Below are positions 20,425 to 60,277 of a stretch of DNA of 64,000 bases, one piece after another (positions within the stretch are counted from its first letter, which is position 1; every line of letters starts with the position of its first letter). The position numbers and the translations under genes were made by a program. The notes under the pieces were generated by a model that was not told where the DNA came from, did not search any database, and worked only from the letters and a program-made list of their open reading frames with translations. The DNA is from Bacteroidota bacterium (GTDB lineage Bacteria > Bacteroidota > Ignavibacteria > Palsa-1295), in NCBI GenBank assembly GCA_030706745.1, contig JAUZNX010000004.1, positions 62,001 through 126,000 of the forward strand, in the 5' to 3' direction.

Positions 20425-20497
20425 ACCGCCCGCCACGTCGGCCATGCCTTTTCTAAAAAAAAACAGGTGCCCGTACGATTAATTCGTCGCTTGCCTC

Positions 20498-20526
20498 TTG
20501 ACTTCTCGAGTTTGCGTCCGTATATT
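20498..20526 (+). promoter_or_regulatory. Sigma70-type promoter of leader A
   Basis: TTGACT (20498-20503), 17-base spacer, TATATT (20521-20526). The predicted start lies about 20532-20536, immediately before the conserved GGTGATAGGCACCC that begins the leader. Confidence 0.75.
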
Positions 20527-20538
20527 CAACCGAGCGGT

Positions 20539-20700
20539 GATAGGCACCCATGCTCATTGACAATCAAGGTGAGATCACTTATGATCTCACCGCCGCTGCC
20601 AATTGACAACATGGCGATTTTGATGCAGTGGATAGGGCATTCATTAAATGACAATTCAAAAGAGAGAATTAAAGTATTACTTTAACTTTGGGCACCTATC
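20539..20700 (+). ncRNA. Conserved 5' leader RNA, copy A
   Basis: A 162-base untranslated leader of the OmpA/PD40 gene. In order: GATAGGCACCC; a boxA-like TGCTCATTGACAA (20551-20563); a perfect 10-bp hairpin (20568-20591); a second boxA-like TGCCAATTGACAA (20597-20609); GGCGATTTTG; then the core with the palindromes TCATTAAATGA and TTAAAGTATTACTTTAA; and GGGCACCTATC (20690-20700). The two ends can pair as 3 + 6 bp with a CA/CA internal loop. AGGAGG follows at 20703. Copies are at 59241 and 42469. Function unknown; not matched to a riboswitch I recognise. Confidence 0.7.
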
Positions 20701-20786: not shown

Positions 20787-22286
20787 ATGCGCAACACTCT
20801 CGCACTCGCTTTCTTCTTGCTCGCTACGTCCGCAGCGCAAGCTCAATCCGCGATCGAAAAGCTTCCGCTCTCGATCAATGCGCCGGGACAGAGCCAACTC
20901 CTGCCGGTCATTTCCGCCGATGGGCGAACCCTCTATTTTACCCGCACCCGCATGGGATTGGATAGCGAAGTAGTCTTCGACGTCTGGATGAGTCATGTCC
21001 TTGGTGATACGGGCTTTTCGGATGCGGAATTCCTGGGCGGGAATCTTGCGAGCTCGTATGGCATCGCGGTCACGAGCATCGCGCCAGATAACAACAGCCT
21101 CTACCTCATCGGCAAGCTCAAGAGTGATTCGCCCCCGGATGAGCGCGTGTATGTTTCGCATCGGACGTCGAGCGGCTGGTCGATTCCGGAAGCAATCCAT
21201 ATTCCCGGTCTTCATGCACGAGGCATCTATACAGACTACAGCTTCGGTCCGGACCAGAAGACACTGGTGATGTCCGTCGATCGCGATTCGACGCTTGGCG
21301 ATCGGGACCTCTACGTGAGCTTCTATAACGAGACAGCACATACGTGGAGCATGCCGCTTTGGCTTGGTGCCGATATCAATAGCCACAGTGCGGAAATGAC
21401 ACCGTATCTTGCAAGCGATAACAAGACGCTCTATTTTTCGAGCGACCGATTCGGTGGGAACGGGGATGTCGATGTGTATCGGTCGTTCCGGCTCGATGAT
21501 TCGTGGCAGCATTGGTCGCGGCCGGAGGAGCTGGGAACGGGGATCAATCGAAACGGTCGGACGACATTTTACACAGAAGACGCGGAAGGCAAATTCGCAT
21601 ATTTTTCGTGGCGGGCATCCACAAGCGATCCGGCATACTTGTATCGGGCTCGCGTTTCGCATGGGCGAGCAGTTGCTCTGGTCCATGGCATTGTCAGCGA
21701 TGCCCATGGCAAGCCGCTCTTCGCGCGAGTGCGTTACGAGCGGCTATCGGATGGGAAAGAGTTGGGCAGCGCGCGTAGCGACCCATCGAGTGGAGCCTTT
21801 CAGCTTTCGCTGCCGGCGGGTGAAGATTACGCGCTTCGTGCCGAAAAAGACGGGTACTTCCCGACGAGCGAGCATATCGATTTGAGGACGCTTAACGTGT
21901 TCGAGTCACTCGATCGGGATTTGAAGCTTTCGAAAATTGAAGCGGGAACTGCGATCGCACTTCGGAATGTGTTCTTTGAAACGGACAAAGCAATGTTGCT
22001 GCCAGCATCCTTTCCGGAATTAGGGCGAGTAAAGGAATTGCTCCAGGCTCATCCCGAGTACAAGTTGGAGATCGCCGGACATACGGACAGTCTGGGATCC
22101 GAGCAGCACAACCAGCAACTTGGAAAAAGCCGCGCCGAGGCGGTGCGAGAGTATCTTGTTCAGCAAGGCATAGAGGGTAGCAGGCTCACTGCGAAATCCT
22201 ATGGATCATCGAAGCCGGTGGCAACCAATGCGACGGACGAGGGACGCGCAATGAATCGACGGGTCGAGTTCGTAATAGAACCATGA
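20787..22286 (+). CDS. OmpA-family protein with PD40 propeller and carboxypeptidase-like domain
   Basis: 499 residues from ATG 20787, which begins a good signal peptide (cleavage after AQAQ). Domains: PD40-type propeller (about 25-310, LLPVISADGRTLYFTRTR, MTPYLASDNKTLYFSSDRFG), a carboxypeptidase-regulatory-like beta domain (about 315-385), and a C-terminal OmpA/MotB peptidoglycan-binding domain (about 395-499, LEIAGHTDSLGSEQHNQQLG, then SRAEAVREYL, NRRVEF). It anchors the outer membrane to peptidoglycan. A strong AGGAGG at 20703 precedes an in-frame GTG at 20712, which would add 25 residues before the signal peptide; the true start is therefore open. Confidence 0.88.
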   Translation: MRNTLALAFFLLATSAAQAQSAIEKLPLSINAPGQSQLLPVISADGRTLYFTRTRMGLDSEVVFDVWMSHVLGDTGFSDAEFLGGNLASSYGIAVTSIAPDNNSLYLIGKLKSDSPPDERVYVSHRTSSGWSIPEAIHIPGLHARGIYTDYSFGPDQKTLVMSVDRDSTLGDRDLYVSFYNETAHTWSMPLWLGADINSHSAEMTPYLASDNKTLYFSSDRFGGNGDVDVYRSFRLDDSWQHWSRPEELGTGINRNGRTTFYTEDAEGKFAYFSWRASTSDPAYLYRARVSHGRAVALVHGIVSDAHGKPLFARVRYERLSDGKELGSARSDPSSGAFQLSLPAGEDYALRAEKDGYFPTSEHIDLRTLNVFESLDRDLKLSKIEAGTAIALRNVFFETDKAMLLPASFPELGRVKELLQAHPEYKLEIAGHTDSLGSEQHNQQLGKSRAEAVREYLVQQGIEGSRLTAKSYGSSKPVATNATDEGRAMNRRVEFVIEP

Positions 22287-32711: not shown

Positions 32712-33019
32712 GCGGTAATAAGGATAGCTGAACAAAAGAAATTCCTCCTGCGCTTGTCATGCCGCCAGACTTTTCGTCGGTAGGATAATTGAGTGTCCTT
32801 CGAAACTATTACGCCCGCATCGCGTTTTAACTTGCCGACACTCATCGAGAACAGTCGAGGGATCAGGCCCGAAGACACTGTAGCAACCGTTGAGAATTTC
32901 TTTAGGGAAACTCAAGCCCAGGTGCTAACTCCTGCCAACACCGTCGTGAGATGGTCTGGGAAAGATGAGCCGAAGCTTTGATGATGATTCTTGCCTCGCG
33001 GCACGCGATCTGTCACAGA

Positions 33020-33186: not shown

Positions 33187-34377
33187 ATGCAGCTCGAAAC
33201 ACGAACGATTCTTCGCACAACCAAGACCGACGACCAATACGGCTCGATCGGAACACCACTGTATCAGACTTCAAATTTTCGGTTTCGCGAAGTTGGTGAG
33301 TCCACCGGTTACGATTATACCCGGAGTGGTAATCCGACTCGTAAAGCCTTGGAGGATGTTCTCGCCGAACTGGAGGGCGGCGCCAGAGCCGTAGCAGTCT
33401 CCACTGGCATGGCAGCGATCGCAACCGTGCTTTCACATTTTCCCGTTGGTGCACATGTCATCGCGACGCATGATTGTTATGGTGGCACAGCCCGGCTGCT
33501 GAAGCTGTTCTCCGATCAAGGCAAGCTCGACGTGTCGTTCATCGATCTGAGCGATCTGCATTCGGTCCGAGCCGCGGTTAAGCCGACCACTGCGTGCCTT
33601 TGGATTGAAACGCCAAGCAATCCACTACTGCAGGTAGTCGATGTTGCCGCGCTTGTGAAGCTCGCAAAAGTCTATGGGGTGCTCGTTGCGGTCGATAATA
33701 CATTTTTGTCGCCATTCTTTTTTCAGCCCCTTGCGCTTGGCGCGGATGTCGTGGTCCACTCCACAACGAAATGGCTCAATGGTCACTCGGATGTCGTCGG
33801 CGGTGCGGTTATTTCGCGGACGCCGGAGTTAGGTGCGCGATTTCAATTCCTCGCCAATGCGCTCGGCACGACGACCGGCTCATTCGATAGCTGGCTGGTG
33901 CTTCGTGGTGTGAAGACGCTTCACGTTCGCATGAGACAGCACGAGTCGAACGCGCAGGCCGTCGCGGAGTTTCTCGCACAGCATCCACGAGTTGCCGAAG
34001 TGTTTTATCCAGGCCTGCCATCGCATCCGACACACGAGATTGCGAAAGCGCAGCAGTCGGGTTTCGGCGGAGTTGTTAGCTTTCGCGTGCGGAGTGAAGA
34101 CATCGAAGATGTCAAGCAAGTGCTGCGCTCCACACATCTCTTTACGTTGGCAGAATCGCTTGGCGGTGTCGAATCGCTCATCGAACAACCCGCACTGATG
34201 AGCCACGCCTCGATGACGCCAGAACTTCGCGTAGCCGCGGGCATCACGGACAATCTCATTCGCCTTTCAATCGGCATTGAGCATGTGGACGATTTGATTG
34301 CGGATCTCGATCAGGCGCTGGCCTCTGTTGGTAGTCATATCCTTCAAGACACGGTGGTGGAGGCAATCGCATGTTAA
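33187..34377 (+). CDS. metB: PLP-dependent trans-sulfuration enzyme (cystathionine gamma-synthase type)
   Basis: 396 residues of the Cys/Met metabolism PLP family. It joins an activated homoserine with cysteine or sulfide in methionine synthesis. Seen: YTRSGNPTRKALE, STGMAAIATVL, ETPSNPLLQVVDV, VDNTFLSPFFFQP, and the PLP lysine in HSTTKWLNGHSDVVGG (Lys about 196); C-terminal SLGGVESLIEQPALMSHAS. The next gene, metX, points to O-acyl-homoserine as substrate, so it could equally be a direct sulfhydrylase (MetY/MetZ). Its stop overlaps the metX start by 7 bases. Confidence 0.88.
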   Translation: MQLETRTILRTTKTDDQYGSIGTPLYQTSNFRFREVGESTGYDYTRSGNPTRKALEDVLAELEGGARAVAVSTGMAAIATVLSHFPVGAHVIATHDCYGGTARLLKLFSDQGKLDVSFIDLSDLHSVRAAVKPTTACLWIETPSNPLLQVVDVAALVKLAKVYGVLVAVDNTFLSPFFFQPLALGADVVVHSTTKWLNGHSDVVGGAVISRTPELGARFQFLANALGTTTGSFDSWLVLRGVKTLHVRMRQHESNAQAVAEFLAQHPRVAEVFYPGLPSHPTHEIAKAQQSGFGGVVSFRVRSEDIEDVKQVLRSTHLFTLAESLGGVESLIEQPALMSHASMTPELRVAAGITDNLIRLSIGIEHVDDLIADLDQALASVGSHILQDTVVEAIAC

Positions 34378-35390
34378 ATCACAACAAGCGACGAATCACG
34401 CTGCGCAATGCCACCTTTGTGTTACAGAGCGGTGTCTTGCTTCCTGATGTCGAAATCGCATTCGATACATACGGCGAGTTGGTTACGAATCGTTCGAACG
34501 TCGTACTCGTACTGCATGCACTTACAGGTTGGCCGTCGGCGCACGAATGGTGGGGCGGACTGATTGGAGAAGGGAAGCTTCTCGATCCCGCACAGCACTT
34601 CATTCTTTGTCCAAATCTTCTTGGGAGTTGCTATGGCTCTACTGGTCCAGAGTCGATCAATCCTAAAACAGGCACAGGGTACCTTGCATCGTTTCCCGAA
34701 ATCACACCGCGGGATATGGCGAAGGCTATATTGAGTTTATTGGACGAACTAGACATCGTGGACGTGCAGCTCGCGATTGGAGGTTCACTGGGCGGCATGG
34801 TCATCCTGGAGCTTGCTTCGCTTGCTTCGGATCGCTTCTGCGCTATTGTGCCGATCGCCGTCAGTGGTTCACAATCCGCCTGGCGCATAGCATTTGGCTC
34901 GACCGTTCGAAAGACCATCACCTCCTTCGATCCAACGCTGAAGGATCGTGACAAATTGAAGAAAGGCTTATGGCTTGCCAGACAGTTCGCCATGACGACT
35001 TACCGTTCGAGCATTGAATTCAACGAGCGGTTTGGACGCGAACTTATCGGTGACAAGTTTCAGGTTGAGACATATCTTGAGCATCAAGGCGATAAGATCG
35101 TCGAGCGCTTTTCACCATATTCCTATCTCACACTTGCGCGCGCTATGGAGTTATATGAACTTCCTCATTCGCTTCCGGATATGCAAGCATTGTTCGTAGG
35201 AGTATCGTCTGATGTCGTTTACGATACTAATGAAATAGCAGCCTTCGCCGCACGATTTCCTCGAGGAGAGTATCAAACGCTGGTGGCCCTGCATGGTCAC
35301 GATTCTTTCCTGATCGATACCGAAGCGCTGACCGAAATTGTGAAACCGTTTGTAGAACGAGTTACTCTTCGAGAGGAGCGTGTGGCATGA
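34371..35390 (+). CDS. metX: Homoserine O-acetyltransferase MetX
   Basis: 339-residue alpha/beta hydrolase that activates homoserine for methionine synthesis. Seen: VVLVLHALTGWPSAHEWW, CPNLLGSCYGSTGP, the nucleophile elbow GGSLGGMVILEL (Ser about 139), and the late GHDSFLID containing the catalytic His. Some MetX enzymes use succinyl-CoA, and the residues deciding this are not clear to me here. Overlaps its neighbours at both ends (7 and 4 bases), so translation is coupled with metB and hom. Confidence 0.93.
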   Translation: MLNHNKRRITLRNATFVLQSGVLLPDVEIAFDTYGELVTNRSNVVLVLHALTGWPSAHEWWGGLIGEGKLLDPAQHFILCPNLLGSCYGSTGPESINPKTGTGYLASFPEITPRDMAKAILSLLDELDIVDVQLAIGGSLGGMVILELASLASDRFCAIVPIAVSGSQSAWRIAFGSTVRKTITSFDPTLKDRDKLKKGLWLARQFAMTTYRSSIEFNERFGRELIGDKFQVETYLEHQGDKIVERFSPYSYLTLARAMELYELPHSLPDMQALFVGVSSDVVYDTNEIAAFAARFPRGEYQTLVALHGHDSFLIDTEALTEIVKPFVERVTLREERVA

Positions 35391-36421
35391 GCTATGATAT
35401 TGCTGAACCCACTACTCTCCGAGGCAAAGCGAGGAGTACTAAGCGACTGCGCCTCGGCTTATTCGGATTTGGCGTTGTCGGCACGGGTGTCTGGAAGATA
35501 TTAGAGGCGAAGCGCGAGGAATTCCATTCCCAATTTGGCGTCGAACTGACAATTGCTGGCATCTGTGTGCGCGAAATGGAAAAGCCGCGCGAAATTCCTG
35601 TTCCTTCGGCGATTGTTACTGACCGCAGGGAAACATTACTCGACGATGACTCAATTGATGTTGTGCTCGAACTCATCGGCGGACGGTATGAAGCGCAAGC
35701 AGTCATCGAGTCGGCGCTTCGCTCGCGAAAGCATGTGATCACTGCCAACAAGCTTGTGCTCGCACATGAGCTGCCGCGATTGCGATCCATCGCAGAGCGC
35801 AATGGCGTGAACCTGTATTACTCCGCATCCGTCTGCGGAAGTGTACCGGTGTTGCGAGCATTAGATGAAATCAAGCAAAGCGATACCATTGTGGGCATTC
35901 GCGGAATCGTCAACGGCTCCACCAATTTCATTCTCACAATGATGGGTCAGGTGAGCACCGATGGTGCGTGTGCAGAATATGAAGCGGCTATGTATGAAGC
36001 TCGTCGGCGCGGATTTCTCGAAGCCGATCCGACGCTCGACGTTTCCGGCGCGGACGCGGCACAGAAGCTATCGGTACTGATCTATCACGCATTTGGACGC
36101 CATGTCCTGCCACAGGAGATCGAGACCAACGGGATAGAGCACATCACAAGCGAGGACTTCGTGCGAGCACGATCCGGGGGGCAAACGTTTAAGCTCATCG
36201 CGAGTGCTGAACTAGATGCGTCGGGTTCGCTTCGAGCTTCGGTTAAGCCCGAGCTGATTTCAACGACCCATCTTTTCGCGCATACACGGGATGAGTTCAA
36301 CGCTCTTGAAATCCAGTGCCACAACGCCGGACCACAAGTCTTGTATGGCAAGGGCGCGGGCAGTCTGCCAACCGCTAGTGCCGTGGTGAGTGATTTGATC
36401 GAACTGCTGAAAGAGGAATAA
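35387..36421 (+). CDS. hom: Homoserine dehydrogenase
   Basis: 344 residues, NAD(P)-dependent reduction of aspartate semialdehyde to homoserine, common to threonine and methionine synthesis. A short basic N-terminus precedes the Rossmann motif LGLFGFGVVGTGVWKIL. The catalytic region reads KHVITANKLVLAHE, GIRGIVNGSTNFILTMM, GFLEADPTLDVSGADAAQKL. It lacks the C-terminal ACT domain of longer enzymes, so allosteric threonine control may be absent. The start overlaps the metX stop (ATGA). Confidence 0.94.
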   Translation: MSYDIAEPTTLRGKARSTKRLRLGLFGFGVVGTGVWKILEAKREEFHSQFGVELTIAGICVREMEKPREIPVPSAIVTDRRETLLDDDSIDVVLELIGGRYEAQAVIESALRSRKHVITANKLVLAHELPRLRSIAERNGVNLYYSASVCGSVPVLRALDEIKQSDTIVGIRGIVNGSTNFILTMMGQVSTDGACAEYEAAMYEARRRGFLEADPTLDVSGADAAQKLSVLIYHAFGRHVLPQEIETNGIEHITSEDFVRARSGGQTFKLIASAELDASGSLRASVKPELISTTHLFAHTRDEFNALEIQCHNAGPQVLYGKGAGSLPTASAVVSDLIELLKEE

Positions 36422-36472
36422 ATCACTTCAATTAGGAATGAGGAATTTGATATGAGGCGTGTTACGGTATGA

Positions 36473-37210
36473 ATGCCGGAAGAATTTTCCTTCGCCACAC
36501 CACAGGATAAGAAGCATTACGTCGAGCGGATGTTCTCTCGCATCGCCAGACGCTATGATTTCTTCAATCACTTTCTGTCGGCCGGATTCGATCGTGCCTG
36601 GCGCCGAAAAGCCATTCGATTACTGCAGGATCGGATGCTGAGTCCTGAACAGCCGCATATTCTCGACGTCGCTTGCGGTACCGGCGATCTGGCATTCGAA
36701 GCACTTCGGCAGATGCCCAATGCAGAGATCACCGCGATCGACCTGGCCGAACCCATGCTTGACCTTCTTCGATCAAAGGCGTCGGCGCGAAATCTCATGC
36801 TGATCGTCGAGCGTGGTGACGTTGAGGCGCTCGAGTTCGCTGATCAGACCTTCGATGGCGTTACCATAGGATTCGGTACTCGAAATTTTACAAGTCTTCC
36901 CATTGCCTTTCGAGAGATTCATCGCGTGCTGAAGCCGGGCGGTGTCTTTGTCAATCTGGAACTCGCTCGGCCGCGGGTCTTCCCCATGAAGCAACTCTAC
37001 CGATTCTATTTCGACTGGCTGCTACCAAGACTTGCGAAGCTCTTTGCTGGCGATGAATCAGCCTATCGTTACTTGCCGGATTCACTTCGAAAATTCCCGG
37101 ATCTCGAACCGCTTGCCAAATTGATTGAGGACGCTGGATTTCGTGATGTTCAATTCCAGACCTTGACCGCCGGTATTGTTGCGATACACTCCGGTATTCG
37201 GGCCGCTTAG
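36473..37210 (+). CDS. ubiE: Demethylmenaquinone methyltransferase (UbiE/MenG)
   Basis: 245 residues, SAM-dependent C-methylation in the last step of menaquinone synthesis. Family motifs: VERMFSRIARRYDFFNHFLS and FDRAWRRKAI at the N-terminus, SAM-binding LDVACGTGDLAFEAL, then GVTIGFGTRNFTSLP and LEPLAKLIEDAGFRDVQFQT. It lies 51 bases after hom and may share its transcript; a quinone gene at the end of a methionine operon makes sense only through SAM use, which is inference. Menaquinone fits the nuo genes at the right end. Confidence 0.94.
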   Translation: MPEEFSFATPQDKKHYVERMFSRIARRYDFFNHFLSAGFDRAWRRKAIRLLQDRMLSPEQPHILDVACGTGDLAFEALRQMPNAEITAIDLAEPMLDLLRSKASARNLMLIVERGDVEALEFADQTFDGVTIGFGTRNFTSLPIAFREIHRVLKPGGVFVNLELARPRVFPMKQLYRFYFDWLLPRLAKLFAGDESAYRYLPDSLRKFPDLEPLAKLIEDAGFRDVQFQTLTAGIVAIHSGIRAA

Positions 37211-38483: not shown

Positions 38484-38598
38484 AAAATTGCCCGTTCTTG
38501 AGAATTCACGGTCTCTCTCTTTTGAATTGTAATTTAATGAACGGCCCCTCTTTCACATTCCATAATTCATATCTCATGCTTCCACAATAGTGGTGCCC
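38484..38598 (-). ncRNA. Divergent leader element, copy D
   Basis: Read on the minus strand: GATGGGCACC near the 5' end (about 38598), then GTTCATTAAATTACAATTC with AAAAGAGAG (about 38542-38516), then GAACGGGCAATTTT near 38490. This matches the core of leader copies A, B and C but lacks the TTAAAGTATTACTTTAA palindrome and a boxA-like motif. A second degraded core (TTTCATTAACTTTGAATTTA, then AGAGAGAAATTAA) follows at about 38468-38434. It precedes the cytochrome gene. Confidence 0.5.
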
Positions 38599-38689
38599 AT
38601 CTTAGCAATGGGAAAGAACCCACGCCCCGTACCCATGAGTTCCGGCTCTTTGGTCACCGAACGAACGCGCTCCCCCAGGTTGCACACGC

Positions 38690-40545: not shown

Positions 40546-42399
40546 TTAATGCGCGATCGTGAATTTGCACAGACCTGAAGCGCCGCCGAGCGTGGCAATC
40601 GCGGTGTAGGCGCCCGTCGTAAGGTTCGAAAAATCCGCCGTCGCAACCCAGGTGTTCGTCATGCTGGCAGCGAGGTCCTGCACTTGCTCGATCGTCCGGC
40701 CCGCGGCATCGCTGATGACAAGCGTGGGACTCGCACCATCCTCCGATGTCTGCTTCGACGTGATCGTAAAGTGAACCGTGCCGTTCGAAGGATTTGGCGA
40801 GGCCGTGATCGCGAGAGTGTTCTTCTGTGGTGTTCGGCGGCGGCTTAACCGAAAGCCGGTCATCGGCTCGCGAATCGTTTGCCGGTAACTGCGCCCAGCA
40901 CCCATGCCGCGGTCAGCGCCGAGCACATAAATATGTCGTGCATCCGGGAATGTCAGACTCCGGTAGGATGTACCCGGATGTGTGAAGAGCGGCTCGGGTG
41001 CCACCGGACGCCACCATCGGCCGCGGATCTGCGTCATCAATACTGTGCCGCTATCACCTACCGCATAGCCGACACTATCATTGACGAATCGTATCGCATG
41101 GAGGTCCTGCCTGGTTGGTGCATAGGAGCGGTGCCACGAGAGGCTGCTATCAACCGTAAACATGAGCGTACCGCTTCCACCACATGCATAACCATTCTTT
41201 GCGGATGTGAAACAGATCCGGCTAAGGCTCGCAAGACCACTTGTGGTAGTCGTCCAGGTTGCGCCGCCATCGGTGGATTGATAAATGGACGCCGTGTCGC
41301 TGTAGATCGTCGTATCGTGTGTGACATTATCCGTTAGCGTGGTCGTATCCAATCGTGTAACTGAATCCGCCAGTACGTAACAGGTATACGGATCGGGAAA
41401 GCTCGCGCTTCGAGCGTACTCGCCCCGGCGCATGGGGATGGCGCGTGTTGTCACCGATTCGAAGGTGGCCGTCGTAAGATACAATGCGGAATCGGTTGCA
41501 ACATAAATGTCGCTGTTGAACTTATTGCGCCAGCCGAATTCCACCATCGGGCGTTTCGTCCCAAGTAGTGAGTCGCATGCACGCCACGTCGATTCGCTCA
41601 CGATGACAAGCGATCCACTCGTATCGCCAACGAGCGCGGACGTATCGGAAATCATCAGCATCGCACTCACTGCTCGCAGGCCCGTGTGGGCTTCCTGCCA
41701 CGTCGTGCCGGAGTCATGCGTGAAAAAGACGAGACTATCGCGCACGATCGCTCCCGAGGCCGCAGAGAAAAAGTCAATTCCGGCTCCCCCTCCTGCGAAG
41801 CGAAGCGGAGACGGAAGGGGCGGTTGATGATCAATCATCCACTGGGAAGTGATTTCAGCGGAGCAGAACGGCGCCACATGCAATCGCCTCCACTGCGTCT
41901 TGCTCGTATCCGATACGTAGATCAGTCCTGGCTCACCGACGGCATAGCACACCGAATCCACTTGGGCGACGCTTCGAATTAAACCGCACGCTTCGGCTTG
42001 CGTATGTTGCGGTGCAGCATACGCATGGGCTTGTTGCACGCGAGTTGAAACGCGCGGTACTGCTAACGACGCCCACGTGCGCCCGCTATCGAGCGATATC
42101 AGCACGGCGATGCTGTCATAGTATACAAACGCAGTATCATGCTCGATCTCGAGCGCAGTGAGGCTCGATATGCCGTGGTACACCATGTGCCATGTGGCGC
42201 CCAAATCCGTGCTGCGAAGAATATCGCCCGGCTCCCGAATCATCACGAGCGCACCATCGCTCATGCCGGCAATCGCCACAAATGCATCCGCTCCAATTGG
42301 ATCCCAGGACTGCGCCATCGCACGCGATGGCATCGCCCACGATGCAGCAATGCTGCCGAGTAACGAGAGTCCGAACAATACCAGAAGCCGCCGCATCAT
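40546..42399 (-). CDS. Secreted BNR/YCF48-like propeller protein (2)
   Basis: 617 residues from ATG 42399. Signal peptide (cleavage near RAMAQ). Blades carry RSTDLGATWHMV, FTHDSGTTWQEA, STDGGATWTTTTSG, FTVDSSLSWHRS. The C-terminal domain (TASPNPSNGTVHFTI ... TTGAYTAIATLGG ... CKFTIAH) differs from the ARFVKE tails of its neighbours. Residues around PPLPSPLRFAGGGAG are encoded by a palindromic REP-like insertion (41779-41823). Expressed behind leader copy C. A GTG at 42423, preceded by AAGGAG, is an alternative start. Confidence 0.78.
   Translation of the reverse strand: MMRRLLVLFGLSLLGSIAASWAMPSRAMAQSWDPIGADAFVAIAGMSDGALVMIREPGDILRSTDLGATWHMVYHGISSLTALEIEHDTAFVYYDSIAVLISLDSGRTWASLAVPRVSTRVQQAHAYAAPQHTQAEACGLIRSVAQVDSVCYAVGEPGLIYVSDTSKTQWRRLHVAPFCSAEITSQWMIDHQPPLPSPLRFAGGGAGIDFFSAASGAIVRDSLVFFTHDSGTTWQEAHTGLRAVSAMLMISDTSALVGDTSGSLVIVSESTWRACDSLLGTKRPMVEFGWRNKFNSDIYVATDSALYLTTATFESVTTRAIPMRRGEYARSASFPDPYTCYVLADSVTRLDTTTLTDNVTHDTTIYSDTASIYQSTDGGATWTTTTSGLASLSRICFTSAKNGYACGGSGTLMFTVDSSLSWHRSYAPTRQDLHAIRFVNDSVGYAVGDSGTVLMTQIRGRWWRPVAPEPLFTHPGTSYRSLTFPDARHIYVLGADRGMGAGRSYRQTIREPMTGFRLSRRRTPQKNTLAITASPNPSNGTVHFTITSKQTSEDGASPTLVISDAAGRTIEQVQDLAASMTNTWVATADFSNLTTGAYTAIATLGGASGLCKFTIAH
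41779..41823. repeat. REP-like G/C-rich palindromic element inside a coding region
   Basis: TTCCGGCTCCCCCTCCTGCG on the left and GGAGACGGAAGGGGCGG on the right form an imperfect palindrome. It is read in frame in the propeller gene and resembles the elements at 48400 and 54681, so it is probably a tolerated insertion. Confidence 0.5.
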
Positions 42400-42468: not shown

Positions 42469-42622
42469 AAATAGGTGCTCAAAGTTAAAGTAATACTTTA
42501 ATTCTCTCTTTTGAGTTGTCATTTAATGAACACCCTCTCCATTTGCGCAAGATCGCCTAAGTTGTCAATGAGCTAGTGAGCGACACCCGCCTTCATATTT
42601 TCCCCGAAAACGGTGCCTATCA
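42469..42622 (-). ncRNA. Conserved 5' leader RNA, copy C
   Basis: Read on the minus strand: GTGATAGGCACC (5' end, about 42621), a boxA-like TAGCTCATTGACAA (42573-42560), GGCGATCTTGCGC, GTGTTCATTAAATGACAACT, AAAAGAGAG, the palindrome TTAAAGTATTACTTTAA, and GAGCACCTATTTC at the 3' end. A plausible promoter is TTGCGC (42660-42655), 18-base spacer, TATGTT (42636-42631). Its middle aligns better to copy B than to copy A. Upstream of the propeller gene at 42399. Confidence 0.68.
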
Positions 42623-42725
42623 CCCGCAGAACAACATACAACATTCTACCACCATCGCGCAAGGTGCCCATCAAAGAATTCATAAAATTGTAGTGGCGGG
42701 ATGATCGGCAGAGCGCGGTATGCCC

Positions 42726-53534: not shown

Positions 53535-54273
53535 GCTGTGATCTGCTTTCAGATTGTTTTTTAGAGTTCTACGGTTTTAAGTTACAGTGCGAGTTTCATC
53601 CGTCACAAGCAGCTGTGATCTGCTTTCAGATTGTTTTTTAGAGTTCTACGGTTTTAAGCCTGAGCCTGTAAATCGGCTACAATGGCCGGCTGTGATCTGC
53701 TTTCAGATTGTTTTTTAGAGTTCTACGGTTTTAAGCAGGAGCTTCGCGAAACGGCCACAGAAGATGCTGTGATCTGCTTTCAGATTGTTTTTTAGAGTTC
53801 TACGGTTTTAAGCCTACGATGGAAGCTATTGGGACAACCCCGGCTGTGATCTGCTTTCAGATTGTTTTTTAGAGTTCTACGGTTTTAAGTGGCCGCTGCC
53901 GGCTGTGATCGTGGACATGGCTGTGATCTGCTTTCAGATTGTTTTTTAGAGTTCTACGGTTTTAAGCACGAGCACGGCGAAGTTGCGCGTGCCACGGCTG
54001 TGATCTGCTTTCAGATTGTTTTTTAGAGTTCTACGGTTTTAAGGCTGCTCGACTCGATCCAGTATGCTGTTCAGCTGTGATCTGCTTTCAGATTGTTTTT
54101 TAGAGTTCTACGGTTTTAAGTGCAGGTCATGGGTGAAGTAGCCAGAGAGGCTGTGATCTGCTTTCAGATTGTTTTTTAGAGTTCTACGGTTTTAAGTTCC
54201 GAGTCTGCGATTGCATGAGCGGCGCGGCTGTGATCTGCTTTCAGATTGTTTTTTAGAGTTCTACGGTTTTAAG
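53535..54273 (+). CRISPR. Type II-C CRISPR array, 10 repeats of 47 nt
   Basis: Ten identical 47-base repeats beginning GCTGTGATCTGCTTTCAGAT and ending GAGTTCTACGGTTTTAAG, starting at 53535, 53612, 53689, 53766, 53843, 53920, 53997, 54074, 54150 and 54227; nine spacers of 30 bases (spacer 8 is 29). The first 22 bases of the plus-strand repeat pair with the tracrRNA at 59097, so crRNAs come from the plus strand, towards cas2 and opposite to cas transcription. No degenerate terminal repeat marks the leader-distal end. Long 47-base repeats starting G(C/T)TGTGAT are known from Bacteroidota II-C systems. Confidence 0.98.
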
Positions 54274-59199: not shown

Positions 59200-59228
59200 T
59201 TGACATTGCACTTTCGGCGCCGTATATT
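59200..59228 (+). promoter_or_regulatory. Sigma70-type promoter of leader B
   Basis: TTGACA (59200-59205), 17-base spacer, TATATT (59223-59228): a consensus -35 and near-consensus -10 with the same spacing as the promoter of leader A. It starts about 25 bases after the tracrRNA terminator. Confidence 0.82.
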
Positions 59229-59240
59229 AGATAGTGGGAT

Positions 59241-59357
59241 CACGGGCACCCATTGCTCATTGAAAGCAGAGGCGATTTTGCGCGAAGGGAGTGGGCGTTC
59301 ATTAAATGACAATTCAAAAGAGAGAATTAAAGTATTACTTTAACTTCGGGCACCTAT
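59241..59357 (+). ncRNA. Conserved 5' leader RNA, copy B
   Basis: A 117-base leader of the diadenylate cyclase gene. Order: CACGGGCACCC, boxA-like TGCTCATTGAAAG (59254-59266), GGCGATTTTGCGCGAAGGGA, GCGTTCATTAAATGACAATT, AAAAGAGAG, palindrome TTAAAGTATTACTTTAA, CGGGCACCTATTTC. The 45-base core is nearly identical to copies A and C. It does not look like the ydaO c-di-AMP riboswitch. Followed by AAGGAG and a 15-codon reading frame. Confidence 0.72.
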
Positions 59358-59434: not shown

Positions 59435-60277
59435 ATGGACCTATTTCGTATCGGCATTCTAAACGTCACTTGGGTGGATGTCATCGACATCCTGCTCGTG
59501 GCGTTTCTCTTCTATCGGCTGTACGTCGCGATGCGCGGGACGATTGCGGCGCAGATCTTTTTGGGTCTGTTGCTGGTCATCGCCGGCTCACTGGTTGCGC
59601 GCGCGGCGGATATGAAGGCGCTCTCCTGGTTGCTCAAAACGCTGACGGACATTTGGGTCATCGCGCTCATCGTTCTGTTCCAGCCGGAGCTTCGGCGATT
59701 GCTGCTGTTCCTTGGCCGCAATCCAGTGGTGAAATTCTTTATCCGGTTTGACGTGAAGGAGTATGCCGCGCTGATCGTCGGTGCGCTGGAAGAACTCAAA
59801 CAACGGGGTGAGGGCGCGCTTATTATTGTTATTCGCACGACGGACATCAAGCTGTTCGTTGATACCGGCTTGCCGATCCGCGCGCTGGTTTCAAAGGAGT
59901 TGCTCGTTTCGATCTTCAATCGGAAGAGCCCGCTCCATGATGGTGCTGTGGTCATCAAGGACCGCTACATTGAAGCAGCCCGTTGCACGCTGCCACTGAC
60001 ATCGGTCGAGAAGGTCGGCAACAGGATGTTGGGTACCCGACACCGGGCGGCGCTCGGGATTTCGGAGCAAGCGGATGTTGTGTCGCTCGTTTTGAGCGAG
60101 GAGACTGGCGAGTTCGCGATTGCGCAAGCTGGGCGGCTTTATACAGGACTTACGGCCGAGGAGATGCAGACGCGTCTCTCCCAGGCGATTACGACTGCAA
60201 GTTCCACGAAGGCAGCGCCAGCGGAGTTCTCGAATCGAGACTACGCACTCGAAGCACGGGAGGCATTCGACCGGTAG
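59435..60277 (+). CDS. cdaA: Diadenylate cyclase (CdaA/DacA type)
   Basis: 280 residues. It makes cyclic di-AMP from two ATP. Three N-terminal membrane helices (about 15-85) precede the DAC domain: SPLHDGAVVIKD (DGA about 169) and GTRHRAALGISEQADVV (RHR about 202) are the catalytic motifs, followed by VSLVLSEETGEFAIAQAG. It stands alone, without the cdaR and glmM neighbours seen in Firmicutes. It lies behind leader copy B and a possible leader peptide. Its stop abuts the stop of the convergent gene. Confidence 0.94.
   Translation: MDLFRIGILNVTWVDVIDILLVAFLFYRLYVAMRGTIAAQIFLGLLLVIAGSLVARAADMKALSWLLKTLTDIWVIALIVLFQPELRRLLLFLGRNPVVKFFIRFDVKEYAALIVGALEELKQRGEGALIIVIRTTDIKLFVDTGLPIRALVSKELLVSIFNRKSPLHDGAVVIKDRYIEAARCTLPLTSVEKVGNRMLGTRHRAALGISEQADVVSLVLSEETGEFAIAQAGRLYTGLTAEEMQTRLSQAITTASSTKAAPAEFSNRDYALEAREAFDR

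Follow-up and report, generated by a model that had tools for sequence, protein, structure and literature searches.

Repeats upstream of unrelated genes in a Kapabacteria genome: probably a dispersed promoter-leader cassette with a putative LexA operator

The closest described systems are LexA-controlled promoters, some of them on repeated DNA, boxA leaders, and interspersed repeats such as BIMEs, REP/RAYT, MITEs and mobile promoters. Bacteroidetes proper have a non-canonical LexA (PMC8565304), and the LexA regulon of Balneolaeota includes recA, Pol IV and a radical-SAM gene (PMC7739468). Repeated DNA with a LexA box in its promoter has been described for ISCR (PMC13393415), and integron integrases likewise have a LexA-controlled promoter (PMC3108266). 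In gamma-proteobacteria boxA is also found in 5' UTRs other than those of rRNA, with the consensus GYTCTTTAANA (PMC5725501). No paper on LexA in Kapabacteria was found in the literature searched, most subscription journals being outside the reach of the search.

The window is the whole stretch of DNA that was analysed, 64,000 nucleotides from a Kapabacteria genome of 3.81 Mb (G000). The first-pass annotation had described a repeat with three copies in it, here called A, B and C, and all the motifs it named were found in the order and on the strands given there. Following the 5' GGCACC these are a boxA-like GCTCATTGA[CA]A, GGCGATYTTG, TTCATTAAATGACAAYTCAAAAGAGAG, TTAAAGTATTACTTTAA and G[AG]GCACCTAT. 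Chance origin of the repeated words is excluded, TTCATTAAATGACAA with at most two mismatches having 4 matches in the window against 0.14 expected, and TTAAAGTATTACTTTAA having 6 matches (3 palindromic sites, both strands) against 0.03 expected. The promoters proposed before two of the copies, TTGAC(A/T)-17-TATATT, are present before A and B, and copy C was found to have one of its own. The downstream genes had been named as OmpA/PD40, cdaA and a propeller protein, and Pfam agrees, giving the last as sortilin/BNR. The features are given below in positions of the window.

20466-20471, minus strand: inverted GGCACC box (CGGGCACCTGTTTT read on this strand) before the -35 of copy A; promoter type 'P2'
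20498-20526, plus strand: copy A promoter, -35 TTGACT, 17-nt spacer, -10 TATATT
20531-20548, plus strand: putative LexA operator of copy A, placed at the transcription start; GGCACC (20543-20548) is the right half and the left half is degenerate; score 20.0, where lexA, recA and dinB training sites reach at least 15
20552-20563, plus strand: copy A boxA-like GCTCATTGACAA
20640-20666, plus strand: copy A invariant core TTCATTAAATGACAATTCAAAAGAGAG
20669-20685, plus strand: copy A palindrome TTAAAGTATTACTTTAA
20690-20702, plus strand: copy A 3' box GGGCACCTATCTC, a weak operator-like right half
20787-22286, plus strand: OmpA/PD40 protein gene downstream of copy A
38500-38602, minus strand: degenerate fourth copy, GATGGGCACC at 38597 and TTCATTAAATTACAATTCAAAAGAGAG at 38541
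40549-42399, minus strand: sortilin/BNR beta-propeller protein gene downstream of copy C
42474-42479, minus strand: copy C 3' box AGCACC (GAGCACCTATTTCC)
42485-42501, minus strand: copy C palindrome
42504-42530, minus strand: copy C invariant core
42562-42573, minus strand: copy C boxA-like GCTCATTGACAA
42612-42629, minus strand: copy C putative LexA operator at the start, right half GGCACC at 42617-42612; low matrix score on the flanking columns, -2.9
42633-42662, minus strand: copy C promoter, -35 TTGCGC, 18-nt spacer, -10 TATGTT
42663-42668, minus strand: copy C upstream GGCACC box (TTCTTTGATGGGCACCTTGCGC) before the -35; high SOS-box score of 22.4
59200-59228, plus strand: copy B promoter, TTGACA, 17-nt spacer, TATATT
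59233-59250, plus strand: copy B putative LexA operator (AGTGGGATCACGGGCACC), right half GGCACC at 59245-59250, score 16.8
59255-59265, plus strand: copy B boxA-like GCTCATTGAAA
59298-59324, plus strand: copy B invariant core
59327-59343, plus strand: copy B palindrome TTAAAGTATTACTTTAA
59349-59354, plus strand: copy B 3' box GGCACC (CGGGCACCTATTTC)
59435-60277, plus strand: cdaA (diadenylate cyclase) gene downstream of copy B

The arrangement of copy A, with an inverted GGCACC before the promoter, recurs at C3:237732, C3:259185 and C10:18409. In the degenerate fourth copy there is no clear -10 and no TTAAAG palindrome. The window also contains a CRISPR-type array at 53552-54244 (plus strand; about ten direct repeats with a common GCTGTGATCTGCTTTCAGATTGTTTTTTAGAGTTCTACGGTTTTAAG of 47 nt, spaced by 77 nt) and a SAM riboswitch (RF00162, 59.9 bits) at 32839-32971 (plus strand), before ORFs at 33187-37210.

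Sequence and pattern searches of the genome yielded 40 copies of the element by BLAST and at least 42 by a DNA scan with a simple gene caller. The 42 copies are intergenic, apart from 2 inside small doubtful ORFs. A TATRTT-like -10 is positioned 14-17 nt before [AGT]GCACC in 34 of the 42, nearly always at 15-16, and the other 8 are without a recognisable box plus -10. Throughout the scanned DNA the distance from TATRTT to RGCACC was 15 or 16 nt in 38 cases, the remaining distances between 5 and 30 having 2 cases each at most. The -35 hexamer varies (TTGACA, TTGACT, TTGCAT, TTGCGC and others), keeping a spacing of 16-18 nt to the -10. The spacers themselves fall into several types which cannot be aligned with each other, while hexamers and spacing persist, and this is the pattern that would be expected for working promoters.

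Behind promoter and box the leader is composed of the boxA-like TCATTGAMA, a variable stretch often carrying short ATGAAATATGAAG-type repeats, the core, the palindrome and a second GGCACC. Nearly all of the 27 core positions are invariant, which is partly an effect of selection, as the copies were selected by this 27-nt core. In the palindrome the arms are conserved and the loop is variable (30 copies). Short tandem words, for example ATGAAATATGAAGTATGAAATATGAA and GATGAAGGATGAAGG, with overlapping ATGA stop-start codons, occur within the leaders in many intergenic regions of G000. A second repeated unit (GACACCGTAACTGTTTCATGAATATTTTCCGAAAACGTAATATAAAATTATATAGCGTGTC) replaces the usual box before the core in four copies; intergenic examples of the unit are C10:121300, C6:115856, C2:350457 and C3:87953. 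Several housekeeping genes have a Bacteroidota-type promoter-like TATTTTTG nearer to the gene start than the element.

Each copy had been placed upstream of a gene in the sense direction. This holds within the window but not genome-wide, where 26 copies are followed by a gene on their own strand and 14 by one on the opposite strand (n = 40; binomial p 0.08). In tandem regions only, 12 same-strand copies are found against 5 opposite ones (p 0.14), and 9 of the 40 copies are in convergent regions, against a background share of about 7% among intergenic regions of at least 100 bases. Given these orientation counts and convergent placements, the element is not simply a leader.

The element also occurs in the congeners 'Candidatus Kapaibacterium sp. 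Chersky.7_45' and 'Ignavibacteriae Ki2-D3_bin-1418'. At sucC 4 of 5 genomes compared have the element or a unit related to it; so do both G000 and G001 at rplY, at the ompA-like gene and at two convergent loci, and both G000 and G002 at a cytochrome gene. Between congeners it is absent at the cdaA, serine palmitoyltransferase-like, nfeD, adk, cobO, CCA-adding enzyme and rsmB loci. At shared orthologous sites the sequence of the element follows the species and not the site, which suggests that copies have been homogenised within genomes. A viral origin was considered and rejected, no match being found in viral contigs. The contig of the window has, beyond the limits of the window, about 1950 consecutive N (C4:187443-189395), apparently masked or withheld DNA.

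The promoter plus 5' box was searched with the pattern TATRTTN{7,10}TSATRGGCACC in genomes of the genus and beyond, using the reversed pattern as control. Matches were found in 7 of 7 genus genomes and in one genome of another genus of the family, none in the 33 others, and none with the reversed pattern. Every match has a 10-nt gap. Because several of them directly precede genes for Pol IV, LexA and DNA methyltransferases, an SOS operator was suspected, and this prediction was then tested on the lexA, recA and Pol IV loci of the whole family. The putative operator has the form RGCACC with a left half RTGCT six bases upstream, perfect sites being GGTGCT-N6-RGCACC. LexA sites of Fibrobacter are also TGC...GCA palindromes.

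At lexA, RGCACC with the RTGCT left half follows the -10 in 10 family loci from three genera, a count that leaves out the G006 locus; some read GTGCTTTTATGAGCACC. The lexA promoter of G000 itself, TTGACT-N17-TATATT-N16-GGCACC...GGGCGTTCATTAAATGACAATTCAAAAGAGAGAA, amounts to an entire copy of the element and includes the core. For recA, RGCACC follows the -10 in 6 of 10 genomes and GGTGCC-N6-GGCACC is found upstream in 2 more, and for Pol IV (dinB) the box follows the -10 in 8 of 10. PA0069-type radical-SAM genes, first found by scanning G000 and named from NCBIfam, have the box upstream in 13 of 14 cases, some with the perfect GGTGCT-N6-RGCACC. The recA, Pol IV and radical-SAM sites, too, come from several genera. 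A GGTGCC-N6-GGCACC palindrome stands before recA in five congeners (L314, L315, L312, L311 and L309; near-perfect in L314 and L315) and is a candidate high-affinity LexA site. The LexA of G000 is canonical: it is a TIGR00498 equivalog with LexA_DNA_bind and Peptidase_S24 domains, and by eye its sequence shows VTAGEP with an Ala-Gly bond and the serine motif GESM.

A weight matrix was made from 24 lexA, dinB and recA sites, with GGCACC itself left out. Compared with 1163 GGCACC controls from coding DNA, all 34 element boxes exceed the 95% quantile and 30 of them the 99% quantile, where the p-values overstate independence since the copies are related to each other. Left half, spacer and right flank each score above the controls. 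Right half and spacer are strong in the copies, and the left half is degenerate in most of them, with a mean score below zero, yet above controls. A -10 plus box is found within 400 nt upstream of only 21 of 821 genes, 16 of the 21 with the core.

The GGCACC box that the element has in common with the lexA, recA, dinB and PA0069 radical-SAM promoters points to a LexA (SOS) operator, and the 5' GGCACC is best explained as such a DNA operator, presumably acting at the transcription start. The repeats are probably copies of a dispersed cassette of promoter and leader, derived from an SOS promoter and carrying a putative LexA operator, which would most likely put dozens of unrelated genes under LexA, rather than a regulatory RNA. 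From the sequence data we infer that LexA binds and controls the copies and that DNA damage induces them. RNA polymerase would start from the TTGNNN-N16-18-TATRTT promoter, and LexA bound to the operator 15-16 nt 3' of the -10 would block initiation. In the copies the operator would be made up chiefly of its right half, RGCACC, and the TGATR spacer, the ideal form being GGTGCT-N6-RGCACC; affinity for LexA may be low because the left half-site is degenerate in most copies. The additional GGCACC boxes upstream of the -35 and at the leader's 3' end may contribute. As in the known SOS pathway, DNA damage would lead to RecA-stimulated self-cleavage of LexA and release of the promoter. Transcription would then pass through the boxA-like motif, variable part, core and palindrome, a leader some 100-200 nt long, and go on into the adjacent gene; in roughly one third of the copies it would instead enter the 3' end of a gene of opposite orientation. 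These 14 of 40 copies count against the LexA model, as do the 8 of 42 copies that lack a recognisable box plus -10. So does the implied SOS control of housekeeping genes such as sucC or rplY, which would be odd, several of them having the promoter-like TATTTTTG closer to the start.

Other readings of the repeats were weighed against LexA control. The first-pass annotation took them as a conserved regulatory RNA family, and its repeated promoter plus 5' leader upstream of unrelated genes is real. A long leader with conserved positions and palindromes would suit a structured RNA or riboswitch, but the RNA part of the claim found no support: a search of Rfam, which had been proposed as a check, matched no known family at gathering thresholds or with E up to 1, folding of 21 copies was no better than that of shuffles (mean z -0.38), and RNAalifold on 17 copies gave eight pairs, joining the boxA-like motif with the core, nearly all invariant and none compensatory. 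With Rfam, folding and covariation all null a riboswitch or ncRNA was rejected; the unrelated genes and the antisense placements, about a third of the copies not being before a sense gene, also speak against a structured RNA, which we regard as highly improbable. Less remote, but still quite unlikely, is a leader peptide, by which the core would start a short ORF (ATGACAATTCAAAAGAGAGAA, MTIQKRE...) translated upstream of the main gene. An SD-like GGAGAGG precedes the core, the ATGA start is A-rich, in-frame stops are at 0.035 against 0.06 and 0.08 in the other frames, G002 copies end with MNTQLRE-stop, and overlapping mini-ORFs before cdaA reach the gene start. Against this, codon 10 is free, two copies have stop codons and one is frameshifted, the end of the ORF is unlinked to the gene start in most copies, a Pfam search gave no match, and the kept arms and variable loop of the palindrome suggest a constraint on DNA or RNA. 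A conserved leader peptide was rejected, the reading frame not being consistently maintained, as was translational coupling of ORF1 to the gene, seen only before cdaA and a few others. The boxA-like motif was correctly recognised as such: the rRNA leaders of four related genomes (G002, G006, G007 and G008), read in these relatives with the 16S gene absent from the G000 assembly, have a matching GTGTTCATTGAMA about 340-370 nt before 16S, and TCATTGAMA comes soon after the start in 29 of 42 copies. On this reading the leader RNA would recruit an rRNA-type antitermination complex (NusB/S10), by which polymerase crosses the untranslated leader; boxA has the gamma-proteobacterial precedent cited above, and the idea is compatible with the LexA model. 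The motif may be a real antitermination module of the leader, but it was chosen for its resemblance to boxA, and it is not the heart of the matter because it is missing from lexA's own copy and from the G002 elements, and from 13 of the 42 copies; as an explanation of the element we hold it to be rather doubtful. Duplication of an rRNA leader was rejected, the rest of the element being absent from these leaders.

A passive or selfish repeat, a MITE- or BIME-like mosaic derived from an SOS promoter, spread by transposition or recombination and mostly non-regulating, is unlikely in our judgement. It would account for the two orientations, for the share of convergent placements, for the presence of the element in one congener and its absence from another at cdaA, serine palmitoyltransferase-like, nfeD, adk and cobO, for the mosaic recurrence of whole promoter modules of several unlike types, and for the inverted GGTGCC/GGCACC ends, which are confined to the P2 type. 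The plain MITE that the first-pass annotation had set against its own reading did not emerge, however: by eye no terminal inverted repeats or target duplications are shared, left ends differ between promoter types, no transposase belongs to the element, hexamers, spacing and box are conserved though promoters and spacers diverge, and sites at sucC, rplY and others are common to species. Y1 transposase genes do lie near some elements (G000 C2, C3 and C10; G002 C1, C24 and C44), but the palindromes flanking them are unrelated to the element, and REP/RAYT mobilisation was rejected. Genomes G000-G006 have 5-11 Y1 transposase genes each, several with palindromes of their own such as CGGAAGCGCTGCTTCCG or AGGTGCAAGCTCCTGCTTGCACC.

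If LexA does control the copies, an operator-promoter unit has been multiplied like a repeat, and a stress regulon could expand, or be diluted, by the spread of ready-made regulated promoters. Tentatively, an SOS promoter, which was probably the lexA promoter or one closely related to it, may have been copied through the intergenic regions of the genus and have rewired dozens of housekeeping and envelope genes (sucC, rplY, cdaA, ompA-like) to LexA, the antisense copies acting as LexA sinks or damage-induced antisense promoters and the leader joining operator and rRNA-type boxA. Read-through by boxA, a leader peptide and titration of LexA by antisense copies are speculative. The analysis provides a predicted LexA operator for a lineage in which no SOS description was found in the literature searched, and it raises the question whether DNA damage affects cdaA (c-di-AMP) and central metabolism in Kapabacteria.

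In comparison with boxA leaders (rRNA leaders and the suhB 5' UTR), TCATTGAMA of the element matches the rRNA-leader motif of its family, but it is not in all copies and its function is predicted. Like BIMEs, REP/RAYT, MITEs and mobile promoters, the element is intergenic, multi-copy, mosaic, limited to the genus and promoter-bearing; unlike them it has no shared ends or target duplications, its promoter spacing is conserved, and it differs from the palindromes next to Y1 genes. With ISCR and integron integrases it shares repeated DNA whose promoter has a LexA box, here a putative one, but these regulate their own transposase or integrase, and the element has no such gene. The motif GGTGCT-N6-RGCACC is unlike the published LexA motifs CTGT-N8-ACAG, GGA-N5-TCC, CTAA-N5-TTAG and TTACACATATTTTWTACATA (papers compared: E. 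coli and Bacteroidetes, PMC8565304; Balneolaeota, PMC7739468). As in hosts of a RecA-LexA regulon, G000 has a canonical LexA and RecA. The putative operator lies, as in LexA/SOS promoters, at the start of the sigma70-type promoters of lexA, recA, Pol IV and the radical-SAM gene, and unlike known SOS promoters the element has been multiplied to about 40 related copies, which have a long leader in common.
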